Notes under the pieces: model-generated | Told to the model about the DNA's origin: nothing | The model's database searches: none | The model's input: the letters and a program-made list of their open reading frames with translations, nothing else | Made by a program: the position numbers and the translations under genes | Shown: piece after piece, positions 48,093 through 50,609 of the stretch | Layout: each line of letters opens with the position of its first letter | Position numbering within the stretch: the first letter of the stretch is position 1 | From: Micromonospora pallida | Lineage (GTDB): Bacteria; Actinomycetota; Actinomycetes; Mycobacteriales; Micromonosporaceae | Direction: 5' to 3' | DNA length: 64,000 bases | Assembly: GCF_900090325.1 (NCBI RefSeq) | Contig: NZ_FMHW01000002.1 | Coordinates: 1,922,001 to 1,986,000, forward strand

Positions 48093-50609
48093 ATGGCAAC
48101 TCTTCCGGTACTGCCCCTGACCGACACCGTCCTGCTGCCCGGCATGGTCATCCCGGTGACCCTCGACCCGACCACCCAGGCCGCGGTCGACGCGGCCCGC
48201 GCCACCGGCGACCAGAAGCTGCTCGCCGTGCCCCGCATCGACGGCGAGTACGGCCCGGTCGGCGCGGTCGCCACCATCGAGAAGGTCGGCCGGCTGCCCA
48301 GCGGCGAACCGGCCGCCGTCGTCCGGGGCCTGACCCGGGCCCGGATCGGCTCCGGGGTGCCCGGCCCCGGTGCCGCCCTCTGGGTCGAGGCGACCGAACT
48401 GCACGAACCCGCTCCCGCCGGCCGGGCCCGGGAACTCGCCCGCGAGTACCGGGCGCTGATGACCTCGGTGCTCCAACAGCGCGGCGCGTGGCAGGTCATC
48501 GACGCGATCGAACGGATGACCGACCTTTCCGAACTGGCCGACTCCGCCGGATACGTCTCCTGGCTGACTCCCGGCCAGAAGACCCAGCTGCTCGCCGCCC
48601 CGGACGTCACCGCCCGCCTCGAACTGCTCGTCAACTGGGTGAAGGACCACCTCGCCGAGCAGGAGGTCAGCGAGCGGATCAACAACGACGTCCGGGAGGG
48701 GCTGGAGAAGTCCCAGCGCGAGTTCCTGCTCCGCCAGCAGCTCGCCGCCATCCGCAAGGAACTCGGCGAGGACGAACCGGAGGGCTCCGCCGACTACCGG
48801 GCCCGGGTCGAGTCCGCCGACCTGCCGGACAAGGTCCGCGAGGCGGCGCTGCGCGAGGTGGGCCGGCTGGAACGGGCCAGCGACGCCTCCCCGGAGGCCG
48901 GCTGGATCCGGACCTGGCTGGACACCGTCCTGGAGATGCCGTGGAGCACGCGTACCGAGGACGACACCGACCTGGCCGCCGCGCGCGCCGTGCTCGACGC
49001 CGACCACGCCGGCCTGGCCGACGTCAAGGACCGCATCCTGGAGTACCTCGCGGTGCGCAACCGGCGGGCCGCGCGCAACCTCGGCGTGGTCGGCGGACGC
49101 GGCTCCGGCGCGGTGCTCGCCCTCGCCGGCCCGCCCGGCGTCGGCAAGACCAGCCTCGGCGAATCCGTGGCCCGGGCGCTCGGGCGCAACTTCGTCCGGG
49201 TCTCCCTCGGCGGCGTCCGCGACGAGGCCGAGATCCGCGGCCACCGGCGCACCTACGTCGGCGCGCTGCCCGGCCGGATCGTCCGCGCCCTGCGGGAGGC
49301 CGGCTCGATGAACCCGGTCGTGCTCCTGGACGAGGTCGACAAGCTCGCCGCCGGGTACGCCGGCGACCCGGCCGCCGCCCTGCTGGAGGTGCTCGACCCG
49401 GCCCAGAACCACACCTTCCGCGACCACTACCTCGAGGTCGACCTCGACCTGTCCGACGTGCTCTTCCTGGCCACCGCGAACGTGGTGGAGAGCATCCCCG
49501 GCCCGCTGCTGGACCGGATGGAGCTGGTCACCCTGGACGGCTACACCGAGGAGGAGAAGGTCGCCATCACCCGGGACCACCTGCTGCCCCGGCAGCGGGA
49601 CCGGGCCGGGCTGACCGCCGAGGAGGTGACCGTCACCGACGCCGCGCTGGCCCGGATCGCCGCCGAGCACACCCGCGAGGCGGGCGTCCGGCAGCTCGAC
49701 CGGGCCCTGGCGCGGATCCTGCGCAAGGTCGCCGTGACGCTGGCGACGGAGGCCGGACCGGTCCACGTCGACGTCGACGACCTGGCCCGGCACCTCGGCC
49801 GGCCGCGGTTCACCCCCGAGTCGGCGGAACGGACCGCCGTACCCGGGGTGGCGACCGGCCTGGCCGTCACCGGCGCCGGCGGCGACGTGCTCTTCGTCGA
49901 GGCGACCGGCATGGACGGCGAGCCGGGGCTGACCCTCACCGGCCAGCTCGGCGACGTGATGAAGGAGTCCGGGCACATCGCGCTGTCGTACCTGCGCGCG
50001 CACGGCCGCCAGCTCGGCCTGGACCCGAACGCGCTGGCCGGGCGGCGGCTCCACCTGCACGTCCCGGCCGGCGCGGTGCCCAAGGACGGACCGAGCGCGG
50101 GCGTCACCATGGTCACCGCGCTCGCCTCGCTGGCCAGCGGACGGCCGGTACGCCCCGAGGTCGGCATGACCGGCGAGGTGACCCTCTCCGGCCAGGTGCT
50201 GCCCATCGGCGGGGTGAAGCAGAAACTGCTCGCCGCGCACCGGGCCGGCCTGACCGAGGTGATCGTCCCGGCCCGCAACGAGCCGGACCTCGACGACCTG
50301 CCCGCCGAGGTACGCGCGGCGCTGACCGTGCACACCCTGTCCGACGTGGCGGACGTGCTCGCCGTGGCGCTACGCCCCGCCGAAGCCGAAGCCGAAGCCG
50401 AAGCCGAAGCCGAAGCCGAAGCCGAAGCCGAAGCCGAAGCCGAAGCCGAAGCCGAAGCCGAAGCCGAAGCCGAAGCCGAAGCCGAAGCCGAAGCCGAAGC
50501 CGAAGCCGAAGCCGAAGCCGAAGCCGAAGCCGAAGCCGAAGCCGAAGCCGAAGCCGAAGCCGAAGCCGAAGCCGAAGCCCGCACCGGCCCTGCGCTCGCC
50601 GCTGCCTGA
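48093..50609 (+). CDS. lon: ATP-dependent Lon protease with a (Ala-Glu)33 C-terminal tail
   Basis: The 838-residue protein has the Lon N-terminal domain (VLPLTDTVLLPGMVIPVTL), an AAA+ module with Walker A Lys352 in GPPGVGKTS, VVLLDEVDKLAAGYAGDPA (Walker B), and the protease domain with Ser668 in DGPSAG and Lys709 in GGVKQKLLAA. It degrades misfolded and regulatory proteins. After DVLAVALRP at residue 762 comes 33 exact Ala-Glu pairs (residues 763-828), then ARTGPALAAA. Known Lon proteins end near the start of this tail. ATG 48093 follows CAGGTG. A HAIR operator lies upstream; the deaD gene is convergent. Confidence 0.97.
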   Translation: MATLPVLPLTDTVLLPGMVIPVTLDPTTQAAVDAARATGDQKLLAVPRIDGEYGPVGAVATIEKVGRLPSGEPAAVVRGLTRARIGSGVPGPGAALWVEATELHEPAPAGRARELAREYRALMTSVLQQRGAWQVIDAIERMTDLSELADSAGYVSWLTPGQKTQLLAAPDVTARLELLVNWVKDHLAEQEVSERINNDVREGLEKSQREFLLRQQLAAIRKELGEDEPEGSADYRARVESADLPDKVREAALREVGRLERASDASPEAGWIRTWLDTVLEMPWSTRTEDDTDLAAARAVLDADHAGLADVKDRILEYLAVRNRRAARNLGVVGGRGSGAVLALAGPPGVGKTSLGESVARALGRNFVRVSLGGVRDEAEIRGHRRTYVGALPGRIVRALREAGSMNPVVLLDEVDKLAAGYAGDPAAALLEVLDPAQNHTFRDHYLEVDLDLSDVLFLATANVVESIPGPLLDRMELVTLDGYTEEEKVAITRDHLLPRQRDRAGLTAEEVTVTDAALARIAAEHTREAGVRQLDRALARILRKVAVTLATEAGPVHVDVDDLARHLGRPRFTPESAERTAVPGVATGLAVTGAGGDVLFVEATGMDGEPGLTLTGQLGDVMKESGHIALSYLRAHGRQLGLDPNALAGRRLHLHVPAGAVPKDGPSAGVTMVTALASLASGRPVRPEVGMTGEVTLSGQVLPIGGVKQKLLAAHRAGLTEVIVPARNEPDLDDLPAEVRAALTVHTLSDVADVLAVALRPAEAEAEAEAEAEAEAEAEAEAEAEAEAEAEAEAEAEAEAEAEAEAEAEAEAEAEAEAEAEAEAEAEARTGPALAAA
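50379..50579 (+). repeat. 33.5-copy GCCGAA hexanucleotide array inside lon
   Basis: GCCGAA is repeated 33 times without a mismatch from 50379 to 50576, plus one more GCC. It is in frame and encodes (Ala-Glu)33-Ala. On the minus strand it reads as TTCGGC. Perfect uniformity means recent expansion or contraction by slippage; a change of any whole unit keeps the frame. Confidence 0.97.

Follow-up and report, generated by a model that had tools for sequence, protein, structure and literature searches.

A 33-unit GCCGAA array within the C-terminal tail of Lon protease in Micromonospora pallida, read as a slippage expansion

The lon gene of Micromonospora pallida contains a hexanucleotide array that is both real and extreme: 33 perfect GCCGAA units and a GCC half unit, at 50379-50579 of the window (the whole stretch of DNA analysed, 64,000 nucleotides in length), are read in the lon frame and encode an (Ala-Glu)33 run. 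We read this array as a lineage-specific slippage expansion within the spacer between the protease domain and the C-terminal peptide RTGPALAAA; no unusual type of mutation is needed for its origin, and no like of it was found in lon among the sequences searched. In our preferred account, to which we give a probability of about 0.72, a spacer repeat expanded by slippage while the C-terminus was kept, the outcome is near neutral, and turnover of Lon is at most touched.

Results

Tandem Repeats Finder describes the array (50379-50579) as period 6 with 33.5 copies and 100% matches, and its score of 402 is the highest of 41 rows. The initial annotation had read exactly 33 units, or 198 bp, in frame at the 3' end of lon, and this agrees with the letters at 50379-50576 (100% matches), although the count is taken from assembled sequence and the exact number could be off. 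With independent bases, about 10^-94 such runs would be expected in 7.76 Mb. The second-longest period-6 run in the window has 20 bases, the longest hexamer array in a 400 kb sample of the M. pallida genome has 3.83 units, and a genome-wide pattern search detected no other site with at least 4 consecutive GCCGAA. The longest tandem array of any period from 4 to 30 in the 400 kb sample spans 80 bases and has a 9-base unit; an 80-base array of this kind, at 2543-2622 of locus L267, is a perfect repeat of GTCGTCCGC. The GCCGAA hexamer is free of stop codons however it is read, which leaves six open frames over the array in the open reading frame list; the reading frame of lon was fixed by comparison with relatives. 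Codon usage within the array is uniform, with GCC for 33 of 33 Ala and GAA for 33 of 33 Glu, whereas the Lon core favours GAG (44 GAG, 12 GAA); the neighbouring helicase gene has 43 GAG and 4 GAA.

Table 1. Features of the lon locus, in window coordinates.
Feature	Position	Strand	Basis or remark
Lsr2-type nucleoid protein gene, upstream of and divergent to lon	47326-47673	-	
HspR-operator-like inverted repeat (HAIR), TTGAGT-N7-GCTCAA	48051..48069	+	Located 42 bases upstream of the lon start codon; agrees with the published consensus at 11 of 12 positions
lon, endopeptidase La (LonA type), 838 aa	48093..50609	+	ATG at 48093, TGA ending at 50609; TIGR00763; Pfam LON_substr_bdg, AAA, Lon_lid, Lon_C; start MATLPVLPL shared with relatives
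Lon_C proteolytic domain, aa 559-760	49767..50372	+	Pfam PF05362; S668 and K711 invariant in a 47-row alignment
(GCCGAA)33 = (Ala-Glu)33, aa 763-828	50379..50576	+	Sequence read; Tandem Repeats Finder
GCC half unit (Ala)	50577..50579	+	ACC (Thr) at the same spot in the two nearest relatives
C-terminal RTGPALAAA, candidate Clp-recognised AA end	50580..50606, stop 50607-50609	+	Peptide shared with G033 and G050, all codon differences being synonymous; 102 of 144 genus tails have an AA end
Palindromic elements, terminator-like, between lon and a convergent DEAD-box helicase gene	50618..50702	.	Strong stem in RNA fold

Apart from its tail, the protein has the features of LonA. It scores 801 bits against NCBIfam TIGR00763 (cut-off 608.05), its Pfam domains follow the LonA order (substrate-binding, aa 3-184; AAA+, 343-478; lid, 504-553; S16 proteolytic, 559-760), and K352, D413, E414, S668 and K711, which we take to be the residues of Walker A, Walker B and the Ser-Lys dyad, are invariant in the 47-row alignment. 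The domain set, catalytic residues, HspR-type operator and Ala-rich C-terminus are shared with LonA of Micromonospora and of other actinomycetes, but the M. pallida tail has 76 residues including (Ala-Glu)33, while the other 143 tails in the genus have 11-24. The array lies outside the folded protease: the last residue of the Pfam proteolytic domain is 760, and solved bacterial Lon chains covering this domain match up to residues 760-763 (the query itself stopped at 768). The tail had been described as added beyond the point at which other Lon proteins end; this description has to be corrected, as other Lons of the genus also continue for 11-24 residues after the same ALRP, and the array sits within this existing tail, ten residues short of the C-terminus (ARTGPALAAA follows it).

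The genus sample comprised 160 genomes including M. pallida, of which 145 gave a fetchable Lon stretch and 144 a readable tail, the one unreadable tail being that of L232 (G117). The remaining 15 genomes gave weak Lon matches only (E of 1.3e-7 or worse), and Lon seems, on this sequence survey, to be dispensable in the genus. Many of these 15 genomes are 5.1-5.9 Mb in size; Lon of G058 is without residues 233-558, and Lon matches are split in G125, G144, G145 and G117. Tails begin with one Ala-acid unit in 116 of the 144 cases, two in 18, five in 1, 33 in 1 and none in 8. The nearest relatives of the window Lon are Micromonospora, and the same site holds (GCCGAC)2-ACC in G033 (96% Lon identity) and (GCCGAC)5-ACC in G050 (95%), while among M. 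echinospora and close strains there are two units in P0001, P0005, P0006, P0007 and P0010, and three in P0002, P0003 and P0004. The units of these relatives thus encode Ala-Asp (GCCGAC), and those of M. pallida Ala-Glu (GCCGAA). P0003 and P0007 differ by one unit and by 4 of 762 core residues; the P0007 Lon core is identical to that of G033, and the two may be the same genome. In a tree, the window Lon forms a clade (support 100/99) with G050 and the M. echinospora group, within which the branching order is not resolved. The proposed count of GCCGAA-type units in related lon genes gives 2, 3, 5 and 33 at one site in a comparison of close relatives that includes one M. pallida sequence. All of these numbers are in frame, as the initial annotation had anticipated for a six-base unit. 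As a pure tandem of 33 identical short units the array resembles a contingency locus, but the on-off frameshift switching of such loci has no counterpart here, every count of a 6-base unit being in frame.

The suggestion that no other Lon has such a tail is also supported within the tails read: none of 143 genus tails, of the tails read from 138 of 160 database proteins, or of those at 80 loci is a long Ala-Glu tail. Two protein searches, with residues 600-768 and 700-838, gave no other Lon of this kind among the matches listed (the best 120 out of 8000 and out of 5221, respectively); the window's own protein was absent among the matches listed in both, and the highest coverage of residues 700-838 among the best 120 of 5221 was 60%. 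The longest tail noticed in the 80 loci, in an actinomycete MAG (L081), has a GEE-GEE-GEE stretch. A literature search on described Lon proteins of this kind, in-frame bacterial hexanucleotide repeats and Ala-Glu repeats found nothing on Lon within a coverage that mostly excludes subscription journals. Tail growth of a different kind is seen in Lon of G156 (L206), where VDAGTLGG is duplicated in tandem.

Codon comparisons with G033 (dS 0.179, dN/dS 0.089) and G050 (dN/dS 0.119) show purifying selection on the Lon core. Within the 33 units, 0 synonymous changes are observed, against an expectation of about 3.9 for an array dating back to the split from G033; the P of about 0.02 is a rough, simple estimate that ignores homogenisation. 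The array probably postdates divergence from the nearest species compared. The peptide RTGPALAAA is the same in M. pallida, G033 and G050, with 3 (G033) and 4 (G050) synonymous differences, and the C-terminus varies within the clade, being RTAALAAA in P0001 and P0005.

Related arrays are widespread in the genus. Runs of six or more [GCCGAV] occur in 47 of 160 genomes, M. pallida included; a reversed pattern gave similar counts across the genus but, being itself a hexamer repeat, is unusable as a null. We fetched 20 of these places, finding 19 perfect arrays of 7.0-13.0 units and one mixed, and at 11 of the 20 there was a Pfam match in the frame picked by codon-position GC. Arrays of GCCGAA/GCCGAC type are read as Ser-Ala in a GH20 hexosaminidase and a solute-binding protein, Lys-Pro in ThyX, Glu-Ala in an ABC ATPase, Ala-Asp in CobN, a polyketide synthase, a TetR regulator and a carboxyltransferase, Thr-Pro in CofD, Val-Gly in an MFS transporter, and Arg-Arg in a tRNA-synthetase-like protein. 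As the DNA unit is common to unrelated genes while the peptide differs, the growth process can be placed at the level of DNA, and the origin of the lon array is best read as mutational rather than as selection for Ala-Glu. Like other prokaryotic coding simple sequence repeats, as far as these are described in the available part of PMC6749651, the array is pure, in frame and built from a unit that is a multiple of three; it differs from other coding hexamer arrays in lying in a housekeeping protease, ahead of its C-terminal signal. In the hexosaminidase, the GCCGAA array (L242, 1527-1584), whose opposite strand is read as Ser-Ala, interrupts domain 2.

Length sets the lon array apart. A survey of the class (394 genomes) gave four with arrays of at least 14 units, namely M. 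pallida and three others with 14, 15 and 17, and the other genomes of the genus have at most 17 units by match count, the longest measured being 13; GCCGAA/GCCGAC arrays in the genus and class have at most 17 units elsewhere, against 33 in lon. Since 33 units far exceeds both the 13 measured and the limit of 17, growth or retention may have had a further cause. The 17-unit GCCGAA array, in another genome of the class (L299), encodes an Ala-Glu run in an MGDG-synthase-like protein, four residues ahead of its stop. A search for MutL gave no match in the M. pallida genome, and weak matches in control genomes, which presumably lack mutL. NucS is present in the M. pallida genome and, according to the available part of PMC8228993, is unable to correct indels. 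We also considered growth driven by hairpins, but the predicted fold of a 120-base stretch is, on either strand, less stable than that of every one of 200 shuffled sequences, so that a hairpin offers no explanation for the growth. A functional RNA at the site was rejected, as there is no Rfam match at gathering score within 47600-51000.

The C-terminus itself makes Lon a candidate Clp substrate. Lon ends in ALAAA, and thus in the Ala-Ala of an AA-type Clp degron, and its PALAAA resembles the genome's ssrA tag, AKNNRADFALAA. Of 144 genus tails, 102 end in AA, as do 60 of 75 loci from other taxa; the remaining 42 genus tails end otherwise, so that not all of the genus has the signal. A Clp protease is encoded in the genome: ClpX exceeds its cut-off (648.9 bits), and three ClpP-like matches score 235-254 bits, short of the TIGR00493 cut-off of 308.6. 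In Streptomyces lividans, ClpP1/ClpP2 degrade Lon, and replacement of its two terminal Ala by Asp raises the Lon level, as related in the accessible part of a review (PMC9775585) that cites Viala 2002 and Bellier 2006 on Lon-AA. By analogy, the C-terminal AA of M. pallida Lon is probably a degradation signal. The likeness to the ClpP-recognised AA of Streptomyces Lon and ClgR (PMC9775585, in part) extends to the AA end and the presence of ClpP and ClpX. The systems differ in that the candidate signal of M. pallida Lon stands about 75 residues from the folded domain, instead of about 14. The array takes the length of the spacer ahead of this candidate signal from about 14 to 76 residues.

Discussion

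We propose that the ancestral Lon of this clade would have had two GCCGAC units (Ala-Asp) in a flexible spacer joining the protease domain to the extreme C-terminus, and that replication slippage may have added units in more than one lineage. In the M. pallida lineage, one unit would have changed from GCCGAC to GCCGAA (C to A) and then been multiplied to 33. Such expansion may have been tolerated because it proceeds in multiples of two residues, lies outside the folded protease, and leaves RTGPALAAA in place; a competing reason is that Lon is seemingly dispensable (15 of 160 genus genomes without a family match), so that an altered Lon might simply be tolerated. ClpP1P2, with ClpX or ClpC, would recognise the C-terminal AA in the way reported for Streptomyces Lon; a longer acidic spacer would leave this signal usable, and the array would be close to neutral and not an adaptation. 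The initial annotation had named Lon hexamers, localisation and substrate access as processes that the tail might tune; as the array is inserted ahead of a kept C-terminal nonapeptide, turnover of Lon by Clp is a more plausible target, and any effect of the array would most plausibly fall there. The direction of such an effect may be gauged from work on E. coli ClpXP, in which acidic and Gly/Ala tails beside a folded domain gave normal degradation, while a single Ala, Asp or Glu within polyglycine was of no help (PMC6677533, available part), and in which longer tails retained substrates for longer, while a Gly-Ala repeat slowed the degradation of very stable substrates (PMC9531181, available part). 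From these tail experiments we predict that turnover of the 33-unit Lon would be similar or somewhat faster, with slower turnover also possible.

A different reading of the same spacer is that it constitutes a tuning locus, in which slippage varies the number of units between cells or strains, and spacer length sets the engagement of the Lon AA by Clp in a graded and reversible manner. Near-identical Lons do differ in unit number, the array directly precedes the C-terminus, which in Streptomyces is reported to be a Clp signal (PMC9775585, in part), and retention by ClpX in vitro changes with tail length (PMC9531181, in part). There is also a precedent for slippage altering protein function in the 6-base repeat of mutL in Salmonella and E. 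coli, likewise an in-frame hexamer in a housekeeping gene, although there, as the available part of PMC2955026 has it, one of three units within a folded domain acts as an on/off switch, whereas the lon array lies outside the folded domain and any effect of it would be graded. However, long arrays are otherwise absent at the lon site (143 of 144 genus tails have 11-24 residues), the same hexamers expand in genes without any such logic, and acidic and Gly/Ala tails were not inhibitory to ClpXP in the part of PMC6677533 available. We therefore consider tuning unlikely, albeit the most serious of the alternatives, and are just as doubtful of its corollary, that one culture would hold graded, heritable and reversible levels of Lon through the distance from protease to degron, with no frameshift involved.

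Far less probable is that the Ala-Glu tail was selected as a long acidic helix which alters hexamer packing, localisation or substrate entry. The array adds 31 negative charges per subunit, taking the computed net charge from about -23 to about -54, and AlphaFold2 (47 rows, pTM 0.49) models residues 763-837 as one helix, with a block pLDDT that starts at 63, lies mostly at 71-84 through the array and drops to 48 at the end; if fully helical, the array would be about 99 Angstrom long. Yet the array is blank in 46 of the 47 alignment rows, so that the modelled tail is close to a single-sequence guess, and such models over-call helix in charged repeats. Single alpha-helix (SAH) domains alternate acidic and basic residues that form i to i+4 salt bridges, and the array, with 33 Glu and no Lys or Arg in 66 residues, falls outside that class. 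Of the rigid acidic helix first proposed, the helix is thus retained as a prediction, while rigidity finds no backing in a model whose other rows are empty there. The 33 identical codon pairs, the occurrence of the same DNA repeats in other frames elsewhere, and the fact that relatives manage without the tail all argue further against selection for a helix. Finally, although long pure hexamer arrays are hard to count, an assembly artefact or a wrong unit number is scarcely credible for an array that is interior to a 7.62 Mb contig, away from its ends, in frame and with both flanks matching relatives, smaller arrays being present at the same site in two other relatives.

On the slippage account that we favour, the locus would be of value even if neutral, as the natural series of 2, 3, 5 and 33 units could be used to examine the influence of spacer length and charge on the recognition of a native substrate by Clp, and the array may serve as a marker of hexamer instability in actinomycetes that rely on NucS. 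Should spacer length alter the turnover of Lon, the array would amount to a graded counterpart of phase variation that works through protein half-life instead of expression, in a bacterium without a detectable MutL.

Flanking sequence

Judged by its upstream sequence, regulation of lon is ordinary, with a putative HspR-type operator as in relatives. The HAIR consensus used is TTGAGYNNNNNNNACTCAA, from the available part of PMC2687793, and the best score within 300 bases upstream is 11 or 12 in 92 of 110 loci. The palindrome AGCAGGGGWCCCCTGC, present downstream of lon, has 52+52 occurrences in the genome as a whole, against 0+0 for a reversed control; these palindromes are often paired about 31 bases apart, and form a repeated intergenic palindrome family.
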